Of a stretch of DNA of 64,000 bases, positions 16,976 through 35,350 are shown piece after piece (position 1 is the first letter of the stretch; each line of letters opens with the position of its first letter). Location: assembly GCA_947179485.1 (NCBI GenBank), contig OX359249.1, positions 4,402,001 through 4,466,000 of the forward strand. The letters run 5' to 3'. Below the pieces are notes generated by a model. That model saw only the letters and a program-made list of their open reading frames with translations. It made no database searches and was not told where the DNA came from. The stretch is from Allacma fusca. Its lineage: Eukaryota; Arthropoda; Collembola; Symphypleona; Sminthuridae. A program made the position numbers and the translations under genes.

Positions 16976-18968
16976 CCATATCGCGAAATTTCGGCCTGGA
17001 AGTTCCAAAGTGGACTCTGTCGTTTTTGTTCGAACTGACAGGGTCAAGTACGTTTCCTACTACCGTTTCCACAATTCAATAAGGAATTTGAATCCAAGTA
17101 CAGAATCGTGACCGCCCGCACCTAGTGCTTCTAGTTATGTACCCATATCGAGAATTTTCGGCCTGGAAGTTCCAAAGTGGACTCTGTCGTTTTTGTTCGA
17201 ACTGACAGGGTCAAGTACGTTTCCTACTACCATTTCCAGAATTCTATAAGGAATTTCAATTCAAGTACAGAATCGTGACCCCTCACACCTAGTGCTTATA
17301 GTTGTGTACCCATATCGTGAAATTTCTGCCTGGAAGTTCCAAAGTGGACTCTGTCGTTTTTTTCGAACTGACAGGGTCAAGTACGTTTCCTACTACCATT
17401 TCCACAATTCTCAAAGGAGTTTCAATCCAAGTACAGAATCGTGACCCCTGGCACCTAGTGCTTCTAGTTATGTACGCATATCGAGAATTTTCGGCTTGGA
17501 AGTTCCAAAGTGGACTGTCGTTTTTGTTCGAACTGACAGGGTCAAGTACGTTTCCTACTACCATTTCCACAATTCAATAAGGAATTTCAATCCAAGTACA
17601 GAATCGTGACCCCTCGCACCTAGTGCTTCTAGTTATGTACGCATATCGAGAATTTTCGGCTTGGAAGTTCCAAAGTGGACTGTCGTTTTTGTTCGAACTG
17701 ACAGGGTCAAGTACGTTTCCTACTACCATTTCCACAATTCTCAAAGCAATTTCAATCCAAGTACAGAATCGTGACCCCTGGCACCTAGTGCTTCTAGTTA
17801 TGTACCCATATCGAGAATTTTCGGCCTGGAAGTTCCAAAGTGGACTCTGTCGTTTTTGTTCGAACTGACAGGGTCAAGTACGTTTCCTACTACCATTTCC
17901 AGAATTCTATAAGGAATTTCAATTCAAGTACAGAATCGTGACCCCTCACACCTAGTGCTTATAGTTGTGTACCCATATCGTGAAATTTCTGCCTGGAAGT
18001 TCCAAAGTGGACTCTGTCGTTTTTTTCGAACTGACAGGGTCAAGTACGTTTCCTACTACCATTTCCACAATTCTCAAAGGAGTTTCAATCCAAGTACAGA
18101 ATCGTGACCCCTGGCACCTAGTGCTTCTAGTTATGTACGCATATCGAGAATTTTCGGCTTGGAAGTTCCAAAGTGGACTGTCGTTTTTGTTCGAACTGAC
18201 AGGGTCAAGTACGTTTCCTACTACCATTTCCACAATTCAATAAGGAATTTCAATCCAAGTACAGAATCGTGACCCCTCGCACCTAGTGCTTCTAGTTATG
18301 TACGCATATCGAGAATTTTCGGCTTGGAAGTTCCAAAGTGGACTGTCGTTTTTGTTCGAACTGACAGGGTCAAGTACGTTTCCTACTACCATTTCCACAA
18401 TTCTCAAAGCAATTTCAATCCAAGTACAGAATCGTGACCCCTGGCACCTAGTGCTTCTAGTTATGTACCCATATCGCGAAATTTCGGCCTGGAAGTTCCA
18501 AAGTGGACTCTGTCGTTTTTGTTCGAACTGACAGGGTCAAGTACGTTTCCTACTACCGTTTCCACAATTCAATAAGGAATTTGAATCCAAGTACAGAATC
18601 GTGACCGCCCGCACCTAGTGCTTCTAGTTATGTACCCATATCGAGAATTTTCGGCCTGGAAGTTCCAAAGTGGACTCTGTCGTTTTTGTTCGAACTGACA
18701 GGGTCAAGTACGTTTCCTACTACCATTTCCAGAATTCTATAAGGAATTTCAATTCAAGTACAGAATCGTGACCCCTCACACCTAGTGCTTATAGTTGTGT
18801 ACCCATATCGTGAAATTTCTGCCTGGAAGTTCCAAAGTGGACTCTGTCGTTTTTTTCGAACTGACAGGGTCAAGTACGTTTCCTACTACCATTTCCACAA
18901 TTCTCAAAGGAGTTTCAATCCAAGTACAGAATCGTGACCCCTGGCACCTAGTGCTTCTAGTTATGTAC
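16976..18968 (+). repeat. HOR unit, 12 monomers, 1,993 bp, copy 1
   Basis: Monomers start at 16976, 17143, 17310, 17476, 17641, 17806, 17973, 18139, 18304, 18469, 18636 and 18803. The unit is built from tetramers (GCAT, GCAT, CGAG, CGTG; 663 bp) and pentamers with an added CGCG/CTACCGTTTCC unit (830 bp). A marker of this zone is AATTTCAATTCAAG, where other zones have AATTTCAATCCAAG, in the GAATTC units. Confidence 0.9.
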
Positions 18969-20961
18969 CCATATCGCGAAATTTCGGCCTGGAAGTTCCA
19001 AAGTGGACTCTGTCGTTTTTGTTCGAACTGACAGGGTCAAGTACGTTTCCTACTACCGTTTCCACAATTCAATAAGGAATTTGAATCCAAGTACAGAATC
19101 GTGACCGCCCGCACCTAGTGCTTCTAGTTATGTACCCATATCGAGAATTTTCGGCCTGGAAGTTCCAAAGTGGACTCTGTCGTTTTTGTTCGAACTGACA
19201 GGGTCAAGTACGTTTCCTACTACCATTTCCAGAATTCTATAAGGAATTTCAATTCAAGTACAGAATCGTGACCCCTCACACCTAGTGCTTATAGTTGTGT
19301 ACCCATATCGTGAAATTTCTGCCTGGAAGTTCCAAAGTGGACTCTGTCGTTTTTTTCGAACTGACAGGGTCAAGTACGTTTCCTACTACCATTTCCACAA
19401 TTCTCAAAGGAGTTTCAATCCAAGTACAGAATCGTGACCCCTGGCACCTAGTGCTTCTAGTTATGTACGCATATCGAGAATTTTCGGCTTGGAAGTTCCA
19501 AAGTGGACTGTCGTTTTTGTTCGAACTGACAGGGTCAAGTACGTTTCCTACTACCATTTCCACAATTCAATAAGGAATTTCAATCCAAGTACAGAATCGT
19601 GACCCCTCGCACCTAGTGCTTCTAGTTATGTACGCATATCGAGAATTTTCGGCTTGGAAGTTCCAAAGTGGACTGTCGTTTTTGTTCGAACTGACAGGGT
19701 CAAGTACGTTTCCTACTACCATTTCCACAATTCTCAAAGCAATTTCAATCCAAGTACAGAATCGTGACCCCTGGCACCTAGTGCTTCTAGTTATGTACCC
19801 ATATCGAGAATTTTCGGCCTGGAAGTTCCAAAGTGGACTCTGTCGTTTTTGTTCGAACTGACAGGGTCAAGTACGTTTCCTACTACCATTTCCAGAATTC
19901 TATAAGGAATTTCAATTCAAGTACAGAATCGTGACCCCTCACACCTAGTGCTTATAGTTGTGTACCCATATCGTGAAATTTCTGCCTGGAAGTTCCAAAG
20001 TGGACTCTGTCGTTTTTTTCGAACTGACAGGGTCAAGTACGTTTCCTACTACCATTTCCACAATTCTCAAAGGAGTTTCAATCCAAGTACAGAATCGTGA
20101 CCCCTGGCACCTAGTGCTTCTAGTTATGTACGCATATCGAGAATTTTCGGCTTGGAAGTTCCAAAGTGGACTGTCGTTTTTGTTCGAACTGACAGGGTCA
20201 AGTACGTTTCCTACTACCATTTCCACAATTCAATAAGGAATTTCAATCCAAGTACAGAATCGTGACCCCTCGCACCTAGTGCTTCTAGTTATGTACGCAT
20301 ATCGAGAATTTTCGGCTTGGAAGTTCCAAAGTGGACTGTCGTTTTTGTTCGAACTGACAGGGTCAAGTACGTTTCCTACTACCATTTCCACAATTCTCAA
20401 AGCAATTTCAATCCAAGTACAGAATCGTGACCCCTGGCACCTAGTGCTTCTAGTTATGTACCCATATCGCGAAATTTCGGCCTGGAAGTTCCAAAGTGGA
20501 CTCTGTCGTTTTTGTTCGAACTGACAGGGTCAAGTACGTTTCCTACTACCGTTTCCACAATTCAATAAGGAATTTGAATCCAAGTACAGAATCGTGACCG
20601 CCCGCACCTAGTGCTTCTAGTTATGTACCCATATCGAGAATTTTCGGCCTGGAAGTTCCAAAGTGGACTCTGTCGTTTTTGTTCGAACTGACAGGGTCAA
20701 GTACGTTTCCTACTACCATTTCCAGAATTCTATAAGGAATTTCAATTCAAGTACAGAATCGTGACCCCTCACACCTAGTGCTTATAGTTGTGTACCCATA
20801 TCGTGAAATTTCTGCCTGGAAGTTCCAAAGTGGACTCTGTCGTTTTTTTCGAACTGACAGGGTCAAGTACGTTTCCTACTACCATTTCCACAATTCTCAA
20901 AGGAGTTTCAATCCAAGTACAGAATCGTGACCCCTGGCACCTAGTGCTTCTAGTTATGTAC
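18969..20961 (+). repeat. HOR unit, 12 monomers, 1,993 bp, copy 2
   Basis: All twelve monomers of the preceding unit recur at an offset of exactly 1,993 bp, so this is a complete second copy. Its last 260 bp or so are also the left end of the 7.13 kb duplicated block. After 20,962 the order changes: a GCAT unit follows in place of the expected CGCG unit. Confidence 0.9.
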
Positions 20962-21626
20962 GCATATCGAGAATTTTCGGCTTGGAAGTTCCAAAGTGGA
21001 CTGTCGTTTTTGTTCGAACTGACAGGGTCAAGTACGTTTCCTACTACCATTTCCACAATTCAATAAGGAATTTCAATCCAAGTACAGAATCGTGACCGCT
21101 CGCACCTAGTGCTTTTAGTTATGTACCCATATCGCGAAATTTCGGCCTGGAAGTTCCAAAGTGGACTCTGTCGTTTTTTTCGAACTGACAGGGTCAATTA
21201 CGTTTCCTACTACCATTTCCACAATTCTCAAAGCAATTTCAATCCAAGTACAGAATCGTGACCCCTGGCACCTAGTGCTTCTAGTTATGTACCCATATCG
21301 AGAATTTTCGGCCTGGAAGTTATAAAGTGGACTCTGTCGTTTTTGTTCGAACTGACAGGGTCAAGTACGTTTCCTACTACCGTTTCCACAATTCAATAAG
21401 GAATTTGAATCCAAGTACAGAATCGTGACCGCCCGCACCTAGTGCTTCTAGTTATGTACCCATATCGAGAATTTTCGGCCTGGAAGTTCCAAAGTGGACT
21501 CTGTCGTTTTTGTTCGAACTGACAGGGTCAAGTACGTTTCCTACTACCATTTCCAGAATTCTATAAGGAATTTCAATCCAAGTACAGAATCGTGACCCCT
21601 CACACCTAGTGCTTATAGTTGTGTAC

Positions 21627-21774
21627 CCATATCGTGAAATTTCTGCCTGGAAGTTCCAAAGTGGACTCTGTCGTTTTTTTCGAACTGACAGGGTCAATTA
21701 CGTTTCCTACTACCATTTCCACAATTCAATAAGGAATTTCAATCCCCTCGCACCTAGTGCTTCTAGTTATGTAC
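21627..21774 (+). repeat. 148-bp monomer with an 18-bp internal deletion
   Basis: The unit has CGTG, a 7-T tract and then AATTTCAATCCCCTCGCACC, so 18 bp between the AATCC and CCTCGCACC parts are lost. The bases CC flank both ends of the lost stretch, so short homology may have guided the deletion. The same short unit occurs at 28,761-28,908, exactly 7,134 bp away, and nowhere else that I can see. Confidence 0.9.
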
Positions 21775-23434
21775 GCATATCGAGAATTTTCGGCTTGGAA
21801 GTTCCAAAGTGGACTGTCGTTTTTGTTCGAACTGACAGGGTCAAGTACGTTTCCTACTACCATTTCCACAATTCTCAAAGCAATTTCAATCCAAGTACAG
21901 AATCGTGACCCCTGGCACCTAGTGCTTCTAGTTATGTACCCATATCGCGAAATTTCGGCCTGGAAGTTCCAAAGTGGACTCTGTCGTTTTTGTTCGAACT
22001 GACAGGGTCAAGTACGTTTCCTACTACCGTTTCCACAATTCAATAAGGAATTTGAATCCAAGTACAGAATCGTGACCGCCCGCACCTAGTGCTTCTAGTT
22101 ATGTACCCATATCGAGAATTTTCGGCCTGGAAGTTCCAAAGTGGACTCTGTCGTTTTTGTTCGAACTGACAGGGTCAAGTACGTTTCCTACTACCATTTC
22201 CAGAATTCTATAAGGAATTTCAATTCAAGTACAGAATCGTGACCCCTCACACCTAGTGCTTATAGTTGTGTACCCATATCGTGAAATTTCTGCCTGGAAG
22301 TTCCAAAGTGGACTCTGTCGTTTTTTTCGAACTGACAGGGTCAAGTACGTTTCCTACTACCATTTCCACAATTCTCAAAGGAGTTTCAATCCAAGTACAG
22401 AATCGTGACCCCTGGCACCTAGTGCTTCTAGTTATGTACGCATATCGAGAATTTTCGGCTTGGAAGTTCCAAAGTGGACTGTCGTTTTTGTTCGAACTGA
22501 CAGGGTCAAGTACGTTTCCTACTACCATTTCCACAATTCAATAAGGAATTTCAATCCAAGTACAGAATCGTGACCCCTCGCACCTAGTGCTTCTAGTTAT
22601 GTACGCATATCGAGAATTTTCGGCTTGGAAGTTCCAAAGTGGACTGTCGTTTTTGTTCGAACTGACAGGGTCAAGTACGTTTCCTACTACCATTTCCACA
22701 ATTCTCAAAGCAATTTCAATCCAAGTACAGAATCGTGACCCCTGGCACCTAGTGCTTCTAGTTATGTACCCATATCGCGAAATTTCGGCCTGGAAGTTCC
22801 AAAGTGGACTCTGTCGTTTTTGTTCGAACTGACAGGGTCAAGTACGTTTCCTACTACCGTTTCCACAATTCAATAAGGAATTTGAATCCAAGTACAGAAT
22901 CGTGACCGCCCGCACCTAGTGCTTGTAGTTATGTACCCATATCGAGAATTTTCGGCCTGGAAGTTCCAAAGTGGACTCTGTCGTTTTTGTTCGAACTGAC
23001 AGGGTCAAGTACGTTTCCTACTACCATTTCCAGAATTCTATAAGGAATTTCAATTCAAGTACAGAATCGTGACCCCTCACACCTAGTGCTTATAGTTGTG
23101 TACCCATATCGTGAAATTTCTGCCTGGAAGTTCCAAAGTGGACTCTGTCGTTTTTTTCGAACTGACAGGGTCAAGTACGTTTCCTACTACCATTTCCACA
23201 ATTCTCAAAGGAGTTTCAATCCAAGTACAGAATCGTGACCCCTGGCACCTAGTGCTTCTAGTTATGTACGCATATCGAGAATTTTCGGCTTGGAAGTTCC
23301 AAAGTGGACTGTCGTTTTTGTTCGAACTGACAGGGTCAAGTACGTTTCCTACTACCATTTCCACAATTCAATAAGGAATTTCAATCCAAGTACAGAATCG
23401 TGACCGCTCGCACCTAGTGCTTTTAGTTATGTAC
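21775..23434 (+). repeat. Two 830-bp pentamers
   Basis: The pentamers start at 21,775 and 22,605. Each has the order GCAT (165 bp), CGCG with CTACCGTTTCC (167), CGAG with GAATTC and AATTCAAG (167), CGTG with 7 T (166) and GCAT (165). They repeat at 28,909 and 29,739 in the second copy of the 7.13 kb block. Units of the same composition also build the preceding 1,993-bp HOR. Confidence 0.85.
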
Positions 23435-25930
23435 CCATATCGCGAAATTTCGGCCTGGAAGTTCCAAAGTGGACTCTGTCGTTTTTTTTCGAACTGACAG
23501 GGTCAATTACGTTTCCTACTACCATTTCCACAATTCTCAAAGCAATTTCAATCCAAGTACAGAATCGTGACCCCTGGCACCTAGTGCTTCTAGTTATGTA
23601 CCCATATCGAGAATTTTCGGCCTGGAAGTTATAAAGTGGACTCTGTCGTTTTTGTTCGAACTGACAGGGTCAAGTACGTTTCCTACTACCGTTTCCACAA
23701 TTCAATAAGGAATTTGAATCCAAGTACAGAATCGTGACCGCCCGCACCTAGTGCTTCTAGTTATGTACCCATATCGAGAATTTTCGGCCTGGAAGTTCCA
23801 AAGTGGACTCTGTCGTTTTTGTTCGAACTGACAGGGTCAAGTACGTTTCCTACTACCATTTCCAGAATTCTATAAGGAATTTCAATCCAAGTACAGAATC
23901 GTGACCCCTCACACCTAGTGCTTATAGTTGTGTACCCATATCGTGAAATTTCTGCCTGGAAGTTGCAAAGTGGACTCTGTCGTTTTTTTCGAACTGACAG
24001 GGTCAAGTACGTTTCCTACTACCATTTCCACAATTCTCAAAGGAGTTTCAATCCAAGTACAGAATCGTGACCCCTGGCACCTAGTGCTTCTAGTTATGTA
24101 CGCATATCGAGAATTTTCGGCTTGGAAGTTCCAAAGTGGACTGTCGTTTTTGTTCGAACTGACAGGGTCAAGTACGTTTCCTACTACCATTTCCACAATT
24201 CAATAAGGAATTTGAATCCAAGTACAGAATCGTGACCGCCCGCACCTAGTGCTTCTAGTTATGTACCCATATCGAGACTTTTCGGCCTGGAAGTTCCAAA
24301 GTGGACTCTGTCGTTTTTGTTCGAACTGACAGGGTCAAGTACGTTTCCTACTACCATTTCCAGAATTCTATAAGGAATTTCAATCCAAGTACAGAATCGT
24401 GACCCCTCGCACCTAGTGCTTCTAGTTGTGTACCCATATCGTGAAATTTCTGCCTGGAAGTTCCAAAGTGGACTCTGTCGTTTTTGTTCGAACTGACAGG
24501 GTCAAGTACGTTTCCTACTACCATTTCCACAATTCAATAAGGAATTTCAATCCAAGTACAGAATCGTGACATCTCGCACCTAGTGCTTCTAGTTATGTAC
24601 CCATATCGAGAATTTTCGGCCTGGAAGTTCCAAAGTGGACTCTGTCGTTTTTGTTCGAACTGACAGGGTCAAGTACGTTTCCTACTACCATTTCCAGAAT
24701 TCTATAAGGAATTTCAATCCAAGTACAGAATCGTGACCCCTCACACCTAGTGCTTATAGTTGTGTACCCATATCGTGAAATTTCTGCCTGGAAGTTCCAA
24801 AGTGGACTCTGTCGTTTTTTTCGAACTGACAGGGTCAAGTACGTTTCCTACTACCATTTCCACAATTCTCAAAGGAGTTTCAATCCAAGTACAGAATCGT
24901 GACCCCTGGCACCTAGTGCTTCTAGTTATGTACGCATATCGAGAATTTTCGGCTTGGAAGTTCCAAAGTGGACTGTCGTTTTTGTTCGAACTGATGGGGT
25001 CAAGTACGTTTCCTACTACCATTTCCACAATTCAATAAGGAATTTCAATCCAAGTACAGAATCGTGACCGCTCGCACCTAGTGCTTTTAGTTATGTACCC
25101 ATATCGCGAAATTTCGGCCTGGAAGTTCCAAAGTGGACTCTGTCGTTTTTTTTCGAACTGACAGGGTCAATTACGTTTCCTACTACCATTTCCACAATTC
25201 TCAAAGCAATTTCAATCCAAGTACAGAATCGTGACCCCTGGCACCTAGTGCTTCTAGTTATGTACCCACATCGAGAATTTTCGGCCTGGAAGTTATAAAG
25301 TGGACTCTGTCGTTTTTGTTCGAACTGACAGGGTCAAGTACGTTTCCTACTACCGTTTCCACAATTCAATAAGGAATTTGAATCCAAGTACAGAATCGTG
25401 ACCGCCCGCACCTAGTGCTTCTAGTTATGTACCCATATCGAGAATTTTCGGCCTGGAAGTTCCAAAGTGGACTCTGTCGTTTTTGTTCGAACTGACAGGG
25501 TCAAGTACGTTTCCTACTACCATTTCCAGAATTCTATAAGGAATTTCAATCCAAGTACAGAATCGTGACCCCTCACACCTAGTGCTTATAGTTGTGTACC
25601 CATATCGTGAAATTTCTGCCTGGAAGTTCCAAAGTGGACTCTGTCGTTTTTTTCGAACTGACAGGGTCAAGTACGTTTCCTACTACCATTTCCACAATTC
25701 TCAAAGGAGTTTCAATCCAAGTACAGAATCGTGACCCCTGGCACCTAGTGCTTCTAGTTATGTACGCATATCGAGAATTTTCGGCTTGGAAGTTCCAAAG
25801 TGGACTGTCGTTTTTGTTCGAACTGACAGGGTCAAGTACGTTTCCTACTACCATTTCCACAATTCAATAAGGAATTTCAATCCAAGTACAGAATCGTGAC
25901 CGCTCGCACCTAGTGCTTTTAGGTATGTAC
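23435..25930 (+). repeat. Three 832-bp pentamers
   Basis: The pentamers start at 23,435, 24,267 and 25,099. The first and third have the order 8-T, TTATAAAG, CGAG/GAATTC, CGTG/7-T, GCAT. In the middle one the first two units are replaced by CGAGACTTTT and CGTG units, and the GCAT unit just before it carries AATTTGAATCC with the GACCGCCCG ending. The period stays at 832 bp despite the replacement. The set recurs at 30,569-33,064. Confidence 0.85.
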
Positions 25931-27836
25931 CCATATCGCGAAATACCGGCCTGGAATTTCCAAAGTGGACTCTGTCGTTTTTGTTCGAACTGACAGGTTT
26001 AAGTACGTTTCCTACTACCATTTCCACAATTCTCAAAGGATGTTTAATCCAAGTACAGAATCGTGACCCCTGGCACCTAGTGCTTCTAGTTATGTACCCA
26101 TATCGAGAATTTTCGGCTTGGAAGTTCCAAAGTGGACTGTCGTTTTTGTTCGAACTGACAGGGTCAAGTACGTTTCCTACTACCATTTCCACAATTCAAT
26201 AAGGAATTTCAATCCAAGTACAGAATCGTGACCGCTCGCACCTAGTGCTTTTAGTTATGTACCCATATCGCGAAATTTCGGCCTGGAAGTTCCAAAGTGG
26301 ACTCTGTCGTTTTTTTTCGAACTGACAGGGTCAATTACGTTTCCTACTACCATTTCCACAATTCTCAAAGCAATTTCAATCCAAGTACAGAATCGTGACC
26401 CCTGGCACCTAGTGCTTCTAGTTATGTACCCACATCGAGAATTTTCGGCCTGGAAGTTATAAAGTGGACTCTGTCGTTTTTGTTCGAACTGACAGGGTCA
26501 AGTACGTTTCCTACTACCGTTTCCACAATTCAATAAGGAATTTCAATCCAAGTACAGAATCGTGACCGCTCGCACCTAGTGCTTTTAGTTATGTACCCAT
26601 ATCGCGAAATACCGGCCTGGAATTTCCAAAGTGGACTCTGTCGTTTTTGTTCGAACTGACAGGTTTAAGTACGTTTCCTACTACCATTTCCACAATTCTC
26701 AAAGGATGTTTAATCCAAGTACAGAATCGTGACCCCTGGCACCTAGTGCTTCTAGTTATGTACCCATATCGAGAATTTTCGGCTTGGAAGTTCCAAAGTG
26801 GACTGTCGTTTTTGTTCGAACTGACAGGGTCAATTACGTTTCCTACTACCATTTCCACAATTCTCAAAGCAATTTCAATCCAAGTACAGAATCGTGACCC
26901 CTGGCACCTAGTGCTTCTAGTTATGTACCCACATCGAGAATTTTCGGCCTGGAAGTTATAAAGTGGACTCTGTCGTTTTTGTTCGAACTGACAGGGTCAA
27001 GTACGTTTCCTACTACCGTTTCCACAATTCAATAAGGAATTTGAATCCAAGTACAGAATCGTGACCGCCCGCACCTAGTGCTTCTAGTTATGTACCCATA
27101 TCGAGACTTTTCGGCCTGGAAGTTCCAAAGTGGACTCTGTCGTTTTTGTTCGAACTGACAGGGTCAAGTACGTTTCCTACTACCATTTCCAGAATTCTAT
27201 AAGGAATTTCAATCCAAGTACAGAATCGTGACCCCTCGCACCTAGTGCTTCTAGTTGTGTACCCATATCGTGAAATTTCTGCCTGGAAGTTCCAAAGTGG
27301 ACTCTGTCGTTTTTGTTCGAACTGACAGGGTCAAGTACGTTTCCTACTACCATTTCCACAATTCAATAAGGAATTTCAATCCAAGTACAGAATCGTGACC
27401 CCTCGCACCTAGTGCTTCTAGTTGTGTACCCATATCGCGAAATTTCGGCCTGGAAGTTCCAAAGTGGAATCTGTCGTTTTTGTTCGAACTGACAGGGTCA
27501 AGGACGTTTCCTACTACCATTTCCACAATTCTCAAAGGAATTTCAATCCAAGTACAGAATCGTGACCACTCGCACCTAGTGCTTCTAGTTATGTACCCAT
27601 ATCGAGAATTTTCGGCTTGGAAGTTCCAAAGTGGACTGTCGTTTTTGTTCGAACTGACAGGGTCAAGTACGTTTCCTACTACCATTTCCACAATTCAATA
27701 AGGAATTTCAATCCAAGTACAGAATCGTGACCCCTGGCACCTAGTACTTCTAGTTATGTACCCATATCGCGAAATTTCGGCCTGGAAGTTCCAAAGTGGA
27801 CTCTGTAGTTTTTGTTCGAACTGACAGGGTCAAGTT

Positions 27837-30800
27837 CGTTTCCTACTACCATTTCCAGAATTCTATAAGGAATTTCAATTCAAGTACAGAATCGTGACCC
27901 CTCACACCTAGTGCTTATAGTTGTGTACCCATATCGTGAAATTTCTGCCTGGAAGTTCCAAAGTGGACTCTGTCGTTTTTTTCGAACTGACAGGGTCAAG
28001 TACGTTTCCTACTACCATTTCCACAATTCTCAAAGCAATTTCAATCCAAGTACAGAATCGTGACCCCTGGCACCTAGTGCTTCTAGTTATGTACGCATAT
28101 CGAGAATTTTCGGCTTGGAAGTTCCAAAGTGGACTGTCGTTTTTGTTCGAACTGACAGGGTCAAGTACGTTTCCTACTACCATTTCCACAATTCAATAAG
28201 GAATTTCAATCCAAGTACAGAATCGTGACCGCTCGCACCTAGTGCTTTTAGTTATGTACCCATATCGCGAAATTTCGGCCTGGAAGTTCCAAAGTGGACT
28301 CTGTCGTTTTTTTTCGAACTGACAGGGTCAATTACGTTTCCTACTACCATTTCCACAATTCTCAAAGCAATTTCAATCCAAGTACAGAATCGTGACCCCT
28401 GGCACCTAGTGCTTCTAGTTATGTACCCATATCGAGAATTTTCGGCCTGGAAGTTATAAAGTGGACTCTGTCGTTTTTGTTCGAACTGACAGGGTCAAGT
28501 ACGTTTCCTACTACCGTTTCCACAATTCAATAAGGAATTTGAATCCAAGTACAGAATCGTGACCGCCCGCACCTAGTGCTTCTAGTTATGTACCCATATC
28601 GAGAATTTTCGGCCTGGAAGTTCCAAAGTGGACTCTGTCGTTTTTGTTCGAACTGACAGGGTCAAGTACGTTTCCTACTACCATTTCCAGAATTCTATAA
28701 GGAATTTCAATCCAAGTACAGAATCGTGACCCCTCACACCTAGTGCTTATAGTTGTGTACCCATATCGTGAAATTTCTGCCTGGAAGTTCCAAAGTGGAC
28801 TCTGTCGTTTTTTTCGAACTGACAGGGTCAATTACGTTTCCTACTACCATTTCCACAATTCAATAAGGAATTTCAATCCCCTCGCACCTAGTGCTTCTAG
28901 TTATGTACGCATATCGAGAATTTTCGGCTTGGAAGTTCCAAAGTGGACTGTCGTTTTTGTTCGAACTGACAGGGTCAAGTACGTTTCCTACTACCATTTC
29001 CACAATTCTCAAAGCAATTTCAATCCAAGTACAGAATCGTGACCCCTGGCACCTAGTGCTTCTAGTTATGTACCCATATCGCGAAATTTCGGCCTGGAAG
29101 TTCCAAAGTGGACTCTGTCGTTTTTGTTCGAACTGACAGGGTCAAGTACGTTTCCTACTACCGTTTCCACAATTCAATAAGGAATTTGAATCCAAGTACA
29201 GAATCGTGACCGCCCGCACCTAGTGCTTCTAGTTATGTACCCATATCGAGAATTTTCGGCCTGGAAGTTCCAAAGTGGACTCTGTCGTTTTTGTTCGAAC
29301 TGACAGGGTCAAGTACGTTTCCTACTACCATTTCCAGAATTCTATAAGGAATTTCAATTCAAGTACAGAATCGTGACCCCTCACACCTAGTGCTTATAGT
29401 TGTGTACCCATATCGTGAAATTTCTGCCTGGAAGTTCCAAAGTGGACTCTGTCGTTTTTTTCGAACTGACAGGGTCAAGTACGTTTCCTACTACCATTTC
29501 CACAATTCTCAAAGGAGTTTCAATCCAAGTACAGAATCGTGACCCCTGGCACCTAGTGCTTCTAGTTATGTACGCATATCGAGAATTTTCGGCTTGGAAG
29601 TTCCAAAGTGGACTGTCGTTTTTGTTCGAACTGACAGGGTCAAGTACGTTTCCTACTACCATTTCCACAATTCAATAAGGAATTTCAATCCAAGTACAGA
29701 ATCGTGACCCCTCGCACCTAGTGCTTCTAGTTATGTACGCATATCGAGAATTTTCGGCTTGGAAGTTCCAAAGTGGACTGTCGTTTTTGTTCGAACTGAC
29801 AGGGTCAAGTACGTTTCCTACTACCATTTCCACAATTCTCAAAGCAATTTCAATCCAAGTACAGAATCGTGACCCCTGGCACCTAGTGCTTCTAGTTATG
29901 TACCCATATCGCGAAATTTCGGCCTGGAAGTTCCAAAGTGGACTCTGTCGTTTTTGTTCGAACTGACAGGGTCAAGTACGTTTCCTACTACCGTTTCCAC
30001 AATTCAATAAGGAATTTGAATCCAAGTACAGAATCGTGACCGCCCGCACCTAGTGCTTCTAGTTATGTACCCATATCGAGAATTTTCGGCCTGGAAGTTC
30101 CAAAGTGGACTCTGTCGTTTTTGTTCGAACTGACAGGGTCAAGTACGTTTCCTACTACCATTTCCAGAATTCTATAAGGAATTTCAATTCAAGTACAGAA
30201 TCGTGACCCCTCACACCTAGTGCTTATAGTTGTGTACCCATATCGTGAAATTTCTGCCTGGAAGTTCCAAAGTGGACTCTGTCGTTTTTTTCGAACTGAC
30301 AGGGTCAAGTACGTTTCCTACTACCATTTCCACAATTCTCAAAGGAGTTTCAATCCAAGTACAGAATCGTGACCCCTGGCACCTAGTGCTTCTAGTTATG
30401 TACGCATATCGAGAATTTTCGGCTTGGAAGTTCCAAAGTGGACTGTCGTTTTTGTTCGAACTGACAGGGTCAAGTACGTTTCCTACTACCATTTCCACAA
30501 TTCAATAAGGAATTTCAATCCAAGTACAGAATCGTGACCGCTCGCACCTAGTGCTTTTAGTTATGTACCCATATCGCGAAATTTCGGCCTGGAAGTTCCA
30601 AAGTGGACTCTGTCGTTTTTTTTCGAACTGACAGGGTCAATTACGTTTCCTACTACCATTTCCACAATTCTCAAAGCAATTTCAATCCAAGTACAGAATC
30701 GTGACCCCTGGCACCTAGTGCTTCTAGTTATGTACCCATATCGAGAATTTTCGGCCTGGAAGTTATAAAGTGGACTCTGTCGTTTTTGTTCGAACTGACA

Positions 30801-33800
30801 GGGTCAAGTACGTTTCCTACTACCGTTTCCACAATTCAATAAGGAATTTGAATCCAAGTACAGAATCGTGACCGCCCGCACCTAGTGCTTCTAGTTATGT
30901 ACCCATATCGAGAATTTTCGGCCTGGAAGTTCCAAAGTGGACTCTGTCGTTTTTGTTCGAACTGACAGGGTCAAGTACGTTTCCTACTACCATTTCCAGA
31001 ATTCTATAAGGAATTTCAATCCAAGTACAGAATCGTGACCCCTCACACCTAGTGCTTATAGTTGTGTACCCATATCGTGAAATTTCTGCCTGGAAGTTGC
31101 AAAGTGGACTCTGTCGTTTTTTTCGAACTGACAGGGTCAAGTACGTTTCCTACTACCATTTCCACAATTCTCAAAGGAGTTTCAATCCAAGTACAGAATC
31201 GTGACCCCTGGCACCTAGTGCTTCTAGTTATGTACGCATATCGAGAATTTTCGGCTTGGAAGTTCCAAAGTGGACTGTCGTTTTTGTTCGAACTGACAGG
31301 GTCAAGTACGTTTCCTACTACCATTTCCACAATTCAATAAGGAATTTGAATCCAAGTACAGAATCGTGACCGCCCGCACCTAGTGCTTCTAGTTATGTAC
31401 CCATATCGAGACTTTTCGGCCTGGAAGTTCCAAAGTGGACTCTGTCGTTTTTGTTCGAACTGACAGGGTCAAGTACGTTTCCTACTACCATTTCCAGAAT
31501 TCTATAAGGAATTTCAATCCAAGTACAGAATCGTGACCCCTCGCACCTAGTGCTTCTAGTTGTGTACCCATATCGTGAAATTTCTGCCTGGAAGTTCCAA
31601 AGTGGACTCTGTCGTTTTTGTTCGAACTGACAGGGTCAAGTACGTTTCCTACTACCATTTCCACAATTCAATAAGGAATTTCAATCCAAGTACAGAATCG
31701 TGACATCTCGCACCTAGTGCTTCTAGTTATGTACCCATATCGAGAATTTTCGGCCTGGAAGTTCCAAAGTGGACTCTGTCGTTTTTGTTCGAACTGACAG
31801 GGTCAAGTACGTTTCCTACTACCATTTCCAGAATTCTATAAGGAATTTCAATCCAAGTACAGAATCGTGACCCCTCACACCTAGTGCTTATAGTTGTGTA
31901 CCCATATCGTGAAATTTCTGCCTGGAAGTTCCAAAGTGGACTCTGTCGTTTTTTTCGAACTGACAGGGTCAAGTACGTTTCCTACTACCATTTCCACAAT
32001 TCTCAAAGGAGTTTCAATCCAAGTACAGAATCGTGACCCCTGGCACCTAGTGCTTCTAGTTATGTACGCATATCGAGAATTTTCGGCTTGGAAGTTCCAA
32101 AGTGGACTGTCGTTTTTGTTCGAACTGATGGGGTCAAGTACGTTTCCTACTACCATTTCCACAATTCAATAAGGAATTTCAATCCAAGTACAGAATCGTG
32201 ACCGCTCGCACCTAGTGCTTTTAGTTATGTACCCATATCGCGAAATTTCGGCCTGGAAGTTCCAAAGTGGACTCTGTCGTTTTTTTTCGAACTGACAGGG
32301 TCAATTACGTTTCCTACTACCATTTCCACAATTCTCAAAGCAATTTCAATCCAAGTACAGAATCGTGACCCCTGGCACCTAGTGCTTCTAGTTATGTACC
32401 CACATCGAGAATTTTCGGCCTGGAAGTTATAAAGTGGACTCTGTCGTTTTTGTTCGAACTGACAGGGTCAAGTACGTTTCCTACTACCGTTTCCACAATT
32501 CAATAAGGAATTTGAATCCAAGTACAGAATCGTGACCGCCCGCACCTAGTGCTTCTAGTTATGTACCCATATCGAGAATTTTCGGCCTGGAAGTTCCAAA
32601 GTGGACTCTGTCGTTTTTGTTCGAACTGACAGGGTCAAGTACGTTTCCTACTACCATTTCCAGAATTCTATAAGGAATTTCAATCCAAGTACAGAATCGT
32701 GACCCCTTACACCTAGTGCTTATAGTTGTGTACCCATATCGTGAAATTTCTGCCTGGAAGTTCCAAAGTGGACTCTGTCGTTTTTTTCGAACTGACAGGG
32801 TCAAGTACGTTTCCTACTACCATTTCCACAATTCTCAAAGGAGTTTCAATCCAAGTACAGAATCGTGACCCCTGGCACCTAGTGCTTCTAGTTATGTACG
32901 CATATCGAGAATTTTCGGCTTGGAAGTTCCAAAGTGGACTGTCGTTTTTGTTCGAACTGACAGGGTCAAGTACGTTTCCTACTACCATTTCCACAATTCA
33001 ATAAGGAATTTCAATCCAAGTACAGAATCGTGACCGCTCGCACCTAGTGCTTTTAGTTATGTACCCATATCGCGAAATACCGGCCTGGAATTTCCAAAGT
33101 GGACTCTGTCGTTTTTGTTCGAACTGACAGGTTTAAGTACGTTTCCTACTACCATTTCCACAATTCTCAAAGGATGTTTAATCCAAGTACAGAATCGTGA
33201 CCCCTGGCACCTAGTGCTTCTAGTTATGTACCCATATCGAGAATTTTCGGCTTGGAAGTTCCAAAGTGGACTGTCGTTTTTGTTCGAACTGACAGGGTCA
33301 AGTACGTTTCCTACTACCATTTCCACAATTCAATAAGGAATTTCAATCCAAGTACAGAATCGTGACCGCTCGCACCTAGTGCTTTTAGTTATGTACCCAT
33401 ATCGCGAAATTTCGGCCTGGAAGTTCCAAAGTGGACTCTGTCGTTTTTTTTCGAACTGACAGGGTCAATTACGTTTCCTACTACCATTTCCACAATTCTC
33501 AAAGCAATTTCAATCCAAGTACAGAATCGTGACCCCTGGCACCTAGTGCTTCTAGTTATGTACCCACATCGAGAATTTTCGGCCTGGAAGTTATAAAGTG
33601 GACTCTGTCGTTTTTGTTCGAACTGACAGGGTCAAGTACGTTTCCTACTACCGTTTCCACAATTCAATAAGGAATTTCAATCCAAGTACAGAATCGTGAC
33701 CGCTCGCACCTAGTGCTTTTAGTTATGTACCCATATCGCGAAATACCGGCCTGGAATTTCCAAAGTGGACTCTGTCGTTTTTGTTCGAACTGACAGGTTT

Positions 33801-35137
33801 AAGTACGTTTCCTACTACCATTTCCACAATTCTCAAAGGATGTTTAATCCAAGTACAGAATCGTGACCCCTGGCACCTAGTGCTTCTAGTTATGTACCCA
33901 TATCGAGAATTTTCGGCTTGGAAGTTCCAAAGTGGACTGTCGTTTTTGTTCGAACTGACAGGGTCAAGTACGTTTCCTACTACCATTTCCACAATTCAAT
34001 AAGGAATTTCAATCCAAGTACAGAATCGTGACCGCTCGCACCTAGTGCTTTTAGTTATGTACCCATATCGCGAAATTTCGGCCTGGAAGTTCCAAAGTGG
34101 ACTCTGTCGTTTTTTTTCGAACTGACAGGGTCAATTACGTTTCCTACTACCATTTCCACAATTCTCAAAGCAATTTCAATCCAAGTACAGAATCGTGACC
34201 CCTGGCACCTAGTGCTTCTAGTTATGTACCCACATCGAGAATTTTCGGCCTGGAAGTTATAAAGTGGACTCTGTCGTTTTTGTTCGAACTGACAGGGTCA
34301 AGTACGTTTCCTACTACCGTTTCCACAATTCAATAAGGAATTTGAATCCAAGTACAGAATCGTGACCGCCCGCACCTAGTGCTTCTAGTTATGTACCCAT
34401 ATCGAGACTTTTCGGCCTGGAAGTTCCAAAGTGGACTCTGTCGTTTTTGTTCGAACTGACAGGGTCAAGTACGTTTCCTACTACCATTTCCAGAATTCTA
34501 TAAGGAATTTCAATCCAAGTACAGAATCGTGACCCCTCGCACCTAGTGCTTCTAGTTGTGTACCCATATCGTGAAATTTCTGCCTGGAAGTTCCAAAGTG
34601 GACTCTGTCGTTTTTGTTCGAACTGACAGGGTCAAGTACGTTTCCTACTACCATTTCCACAATTCAATAAGGAATTTCAATCCAAGTACAGAATCGTGAC
34701 CCCTCGCACCTAGTGCTTCTAGTTGTGTACCCATATCGCGAAATTTCGGCCTGGAAGTTCCAAAGTGGAATCTGTCGTTTTTGTTCGAACTGACAGGGTC
34801 AAGGACGTTTCCTACTACCATTTCCACAATTCTCAAAGGAATTTCAATCCAAGTACAGAATCGTGACCACTCGCACCTAGTGCTTCTAGTTATGTACCCA
34901 TATCGAGAATTTTCGGCTTGGAAGTTCCAAAGTGGACTGTCGTTTTTGTTCGAACTGACAGGGTCAAGTACGTTTCCTACTACCATTTCCACAATTCAAT
35001 AAGGAATTTCAATCCAAGTACAGAATCGTGACCCCTGGCACCTAGTACTTCTAGTTATGTACCCATATCGCGAAATTTCGGCCTGGAAGTTCCAAAGTGG
35101 ACTCTGTAGTTTTTGTTCGAACTGACAGGGTCAAGTT
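27837..35137 (+). repeat. 7.13 kb tandemly duplicated block, copy 2 (7.30 kb)
   Basis: Order and rare markers of copy 1 recur at an offset of 7,133 bp. This becomes 7,134 after a T-tract that is 7 long near 21,180 but 8 long near 28,314, and 7,301 after one extra 167-bp monomer near 33,960-34,130. The join lies in 27,837-27,857. Left of it the unit is the CTCTGTAG, AAGTTCG type that ends the block; right of it is the GAATTCTATAAGG, AATTCAAG type that begins it. The exchange point falls in about 20 bp common to both types. A private change is T at 32,708 (CCTTACACC). The unit at 27,929 has CAAAGCAATTTC where copy 1 has CAAAGGAGTTTC. Confidence 0.9.
28761..28908 (+). repeat. 148-bp monomer with an 18-bp deletion, second copy
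   Basis: Has the same deletion end points as the unit at 21,627. Because the deletion is rare and identical, it marks the 7.13 kb duplication as a copying event that happened after the deletion. Confidence 0.9.
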
Positions 35138-35350
35138 CGTTTCCTACTACCATTTCCACAATTCTCAAAGGAATTTCAATCCAAGTACAGAATTGTGACC
35201 CCTCGCACCTAGTGCTTCTAGTTATGTACCCATATCGCGAACTTTCGGCCTGGAAGTTCCAAAGTGGACTCTGTAGTTTTTGTTCGAACTGACAGGGTCA
35301 AGTTCGTTTCCTACTACCATTTCCACAATTCAATAAGGAATTTCAATCCA
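34397..35350 (+). repeat. Module CGAGACTTTT-CGTG-GGAATCTG-CGAG-CTGTAG
   Basis: Monomers at 34,397, 34,564, 34,731, 34,898, 35,063 and 35,230 include the rare TGGAATCTGTCG/AAGGACG unit. Most of this series occurs at 27,096-27,836 in the first 7.13 kb copy. All of it recurs at 36,895-37,810, an offset of 2,498 bp (15 monomers). In the third occurrence the first unit reads CATATCAAGAC and the unit after 37,396 is preceded by AGATACGTGACC. Confidence 0.8.

Follow-up and report, generated by a model that had tools for sequence, protein, structure and literature searches.

Background

The closest described systems are primate alpha-satellite arrays with very long higher-order repeats (HORs). A 52mer is reportedly present on human chromosome 21; for the orangutan, a 59mer has been described. 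Exchange between non-allelic monomers that are in phase predicts hybrid monomers.

The window considered here is a 64-kb stretch (C5:4402001-4466000) of the 392.7-Mb genome of the springtail Allacma fusca, and it is ~167-bp satellite from end to end. Contig C5 (OX359249.1) is taken as chromosome X1 of assembly qeAllFusc8.1 (PMC10427803). A search of titles in the open-access literature (subscription papers mostly lie outside it) for an Allacma fusca satellite or springtail centromere satellite DNA returned no paper title on the X1 satellite. We report a block of this satellite that is present twice in tandem and the probable mode of its duplication.

Results

The array to which the window belongs, referred to as the forward array, spans C5:4385885 to 4494657 (108.8 kb, 653 monomers, 293 exact monomer types), with zero runs of N over that whole span. 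A 26-base core of the satellite occurs 838 times genome-wide: 807 times in two X1 arrays and 13 times in a small array on C8, the other 18 occurrences being unplaced. The small array of this family (C8:68085065-68087488, putative chromosome 2; 15 matches) comprises 15 monomers, none of them identical to an X1 monomer, with a best identity of ~98%. Phages, GTDB genomes, Rfam and tRNAs searched with the satellite gave zero matches, as expected for a eukaryotic satellite.

All positions given below without a contig name are those of the window, on the forward strand. Copy 1 of the duplicated block occupies 20704..27836 (7,133 bp, 43 monomers) and is directly followed, with nothing intervening, by copy 2 at 27837..35137 (7,301 bp, 44 monomers). 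The global alignment of 20,704-27,836 with 27,837-35,137 shows identity in 7,128 columns and a mismatch in 5 (copy 1/copy 2: 20903 G/C, 20905 G/A, 22925 G/C, 25574 C/T, 25923 G/T); in addition, copy 2 has an extra T at 28,307 and an extra 167-bp monomer at 33,949-34,115. The spacing between the copies along the block is 7,133, then 7,134 and then 7,301 bp. A preliminary description of this DNA proposed a near-identical second copy directly after the first, with a handful of base differences, a 1-bp difference in a T-tract and one monomer-sized difference, and the alignment bears this out. Its block of about 43 monomers is correct for copy 1, while copy 2 and the ancestral unit have 44; likewise, its marker spacing of 7,133-7,134 bp applies to the stretches before the site of the lost monomer, and 7,301 bp applies after it. 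The short marker monomer (21627..21773 in copy 1 and 28761..28907 in copy 2) is 147 bp as cut here and 148 bp in that description; the alignment of the full block spans the other short markers as well.

Exactly identical monomers form runs of up to 15 at a single lag in the forward array, whereas 50 shuffles of the monomer order gave no run above 3; the repetition of the block is not a matter of chance. When up to 2 edits per monomer are allowed, the run at lag 43 covers 37 monomers and ends where the monomer was lost. Tandem runs were counted as complete if the run reached at least 0.85 of the lag and the lag was at least 5 monomers, so that incomplete or older events are uncounted. Among such runs in the forward array, the next longest lag after the duplicated block is 14 monomers. 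The block had been presented as far longer than the other periods, which is true of the forward array; however, a second X1 array contains a duplication of ~69 monomers (absent from the same listing of complete runs), and therefore the block is the largest complete duplication of the forward array, not of the locus. At the base level, many of the 60 longest of 1,487 repeats have lags near multiples of the monomer, and some lags are not exact multiples because of short monomers. In these 60 and in the lag runs the 44-monomer unit is present two times, as opposed to the many highly identical repeats of a HOR array. Lags of 5-10 monomers extend past one period in places, so the forward array does include short HOR-like stretches.

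The join falls within the monomer 27762..27928, an exact mosaic whose two sources are the monomers at either border of the duplication. The left parent (20629..20795) is the monomer whose 3' part begins copy 1, and the right parent (35063..35229) is the one whose 5' part ends copy 2; they differ at 12 of 167 positions. Up to position 96 the join monomer has the sequence of the right parent, and from position 76 onward it has that of the left parent; that is, positions 1-75 are as in the right parent, 97-167 are as in the left one and 76-96 are common to both. All 12 parental differences are accounted for, with no base left unexplained. Since 27,836 fits the right-hand parent only, 27,858 fits the left-hand parent only and the mosaic is in phase, the switch lies within 27837..27857, at the same phase in both parents. 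The parents are identical over these 21 bp, which makes exact the earlier placement of the join in about 20 bp common to the two subtypes that meet there. A same-phase mosaic of the two border monomers is what in-phase unequal exchange leaves behind.

The differences between the copies can be polarized using the rest of the array. The extra monomer of copy 2 corresponds to a hybrid in copy 1: the monomer 26764..26928, a singleton in the array, is an exact mosaic of two successive intact monomers of copy 2 (33898..34229), its 5' part being as in 33,898-34,062 and its 3' part as in 34,063-34,229, with the switch between 26,815 and 26,833. Copy 2 has kept both monomers; thus, one monomer was lost from copy 1 and the original unit had 44. 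The loss came about by a second in-phase, out-of-register exchange. Five monomers carry the substitutions and the T difference; in each case one copy has a singleton type, and the type in the other copy has 8 to 21 occurrences in the array. On this basis the changes at 22925 and 25923, the T-tract change and the monomer loss are derived in copy 1 (which is thus shorter by one monomer and one T, with copy 2 at the ancestral length), and those at 20903, 20905 and 25574 are derived in copy 2. The derived bases at the first two of these positions, 28036..28038 in copy 2, form part of a 12-base state with 50 occurrences in the array (its own included), and the pair possibly reflects one short gene conversion. 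A sequencing error could account for the one-base T difference.

The second X1 array is inverted relative to the forward one (C5:4521078-4618129; 580 or 581 monomers by two cuttings). The possibility that it is simply the other haplotype of the forward array, or was copied from it, was tested and rejected: the two share no 334-base word (73.9 kb of the inverted array compared) and a single exact monomer type, the cutting into monomers being uneven in the initial ~7 kb of the inverted array. The inverted array is homogenised separately from the forward one. From one end of its large tandem duplication to the other, the present lag is 12,521 bp, then 11,519 bp and then 12,688 bp. Our reading is that ~69 ancestral monomers (11,519 bp) were duplicated and that 6 monomers were later added to copy A and 7 to copy B. 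Both of these smaller repeats are marked by hybrid monomers, and each presumably arose as a gain in the one copy, not as a loss from the other. The join of the large duplication (C5:4599604-4599733) explains 8 of 8 parental differences, 3 on one side and 5 on the other. The 6-monomer repeat in copy A has a join of the same mosaic kind; for the 7-monomer repeat in copy B, the strict scan gives a hybrid with parents 7 monomers to either side, and the ungapped base comparison is blurred past 26366 by the length difference. The copies differ by 4 substitutions in ~11.65 kb, as counted along three diagonals. These diagonals list 2 + 2 + 5 mismatches, and five of the nine were dropped: 7816, which is part of the hybrid of the 6-monomer repeat, and four at 18526-18616, past the right end of the match. 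A scan of both arrays for the phase of switches in hybrid monomers gave many long intervals, and the event of 44 monomers escaped its strict context rule, a monomer next to it having changed in the meantime.

A 23-kb piece (C5:4497439-4520438) with a 200-N gap at either side lies between the two arrays. Its GC content is ~22% over most of its length, and it includes ~8 tandem copies of ~2.5 kb with an identity of 99.5-99.7%, the repeat span taking in sequence that adjoins the first gap. Frames at one end resemble mitochondrial ND1 and cytochrome b, as judged by eye. The piece is a nuclear mitochondrial insert or else a mitochondrial contig, carrying an expanded repeat, that was put in the wrong place; because this gapped piece sits between the X1 arrays, their relative orientation is uncertain. 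COX1 matches number 13 (on C12, C5:4638854, C8 and C91); five are near-complete and have TGA as their sole internal stops, including one ~21 kb past the inverted array (C5:4638854). Among the matches, one is possibly the mitochondrial genome proper and several are possibly nuclear copies.

Discussion

We believe, with a probability of about 0.85, that the duplication was made by a homology-directed exchange, in phase but out of register. The join monomer, being an exact same-phase mosaic with no stray base, favours such an exchange, and the large duplication of the inverted array adds support by a like join. The estimate refers to the class of homology-directed exchange, and copying by replication or re-insertion of a circle would be routes inside it. 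In the likeliest single route, misaligned sister chromatids or X1 homologues would have crossed over: the monomer now at 20,629 would have paired with one originally 44 units onward, now at 35,063, and the strands would have switched inside the 21-bp stretch identical in both. One large out-of-register exchange had been suggested before; the mechanism is upheld, but as a large event it is not the sole one at the locus, given the ~69-monomer duplication.

We presume a crossover rather than the two other routes. Break-induced replication, or a restart of replication out of register, could have copied the block, which we consider quite possible, though at less than even odds: its product would be identical in sequence to that of a crossover, yet no feature here points to it specifically and the later loss in copy 1 fits either model. 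Extrachromosomal circles from plant satellite repeats have reportedly been surveyed, and a circle of 44 monomers that was excised and re-inserted beside its source would give a product of the same appearance if inserted at the excision site; since this takes two exchanges at one place where one suffices, we regard it as highly improbable. For human alpha satellite, break-induced replication is argued to be a driver of array change (PMC11034957).

It is also necessary to consider that the second copy was produced by the assembler or by chimeric molecules. Ultra-low-input protocols amplify by PCR, and PCR can create chimeras in tandem repeats. The HiFi library was prepared by such a protocol (PMC10427803), the array is highly repetitive, and scaffolding faults occur nearby, namely the two 200-N gaps and the mitochondrial-type piece between the arrays. 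Nevertheless, there is no run of N inside the array, and seven differences separate the copies, some derived in copy 1 and others in copy 2. The copies are nowhere identical over more than 2,648 bp, while the DNA is stated to have been sheared to 12-20 kb; the stated assembly QV is 58.7, a figure for the whole assembly rather than this array (both values from PMC10427803). The specimen used for HiFi sequencing was one male (PMC10427803), and X1 is hemizygous in males (PMC10427803, PMC9630974), so an end-to-end join of two alleles is excluded, provided that elimination is complete. With changes in both copies, no identical stretch longer than 2,648 bp and a male-hemizygous chromosome, an assembly or library artefact is unlikely, and both copies are probably real in the animal, as far as the assembled bases can tell.

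The divergence between the copies is 5/7,133 columns (0.07%) in the forward array and ~0.034% in the inverted one. With a Drosophila-like mutation rate near 3e-9 per generation, the duplication would date back, as an order of magnitude, some 100,000 generations. PMC9630974 gives 227,570 autosomal and 7,731 X-linked heterozygous variants for male BH3-2, and 28,070 in all for the reference male of that study. With 282 Mb of autosomes (PMC10427803), the autosomal heterozygosity of BH3-2 is ~0.08%, a rough value, as the variants are filtered and placed on scaffolds. Measured against BH3-2, the duplication does not exceed the age of ordinary standing variation and could still segregate; against the reference male, which is nearly homozygous, it seems older.

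It is tempting to see in the 44- and ~69-monomer duplications, which arose once each at roughly similar recent times in two opposed X1 arrays, a separate mode or burst of amplification instead of the tail of small exchanges; complete tandem lags between 21 and 43 monomers (runs at least 0.85 of the lag) are not listed. We consider this doubtful; if true, a burst would have struck a chromosome that males carry in a single copy and partly eliminate. The case is most likely a real, recent, well-resolved instance of ordinary satellite turnover by a mechanism already known.

Satellite growth is usually deduced from much-overwritten arrays, whereas individual exchanges are legible here down to the base, on a chromosome that is hemizygous in males. 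The two large duplications also serve as time reference points for array change. Since they occurred, the ~226 monomers in the four block copies gained 9 substitutions and 3 monomer-scale exchanges, or about one exchange per three substitutions; the numbers are small, and the direction is deduced for two of the three exchanges. A comparison among other males could directly show the rate at which such arrays are rearranged.

The Allacma array resembles primate alpha-satellite HORs in that monomers of similar length are arranged head-to-tail and multi-monomer blocks are copied. It differs from them in species and satellite, and in that the 44-monomer block is found two times only, for which reason we speak of one duplication and not of an amplified HOR array. 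The event agrees with models of unequal crossover and break-induced replication (PMC11034957), in which in-phase non-allelic exchange yields a tandem duplication or deletion. Relative to these models of satellite turnover it is the same in kind, and distinct only in that every informative site of the parents and the hybrid is legible.
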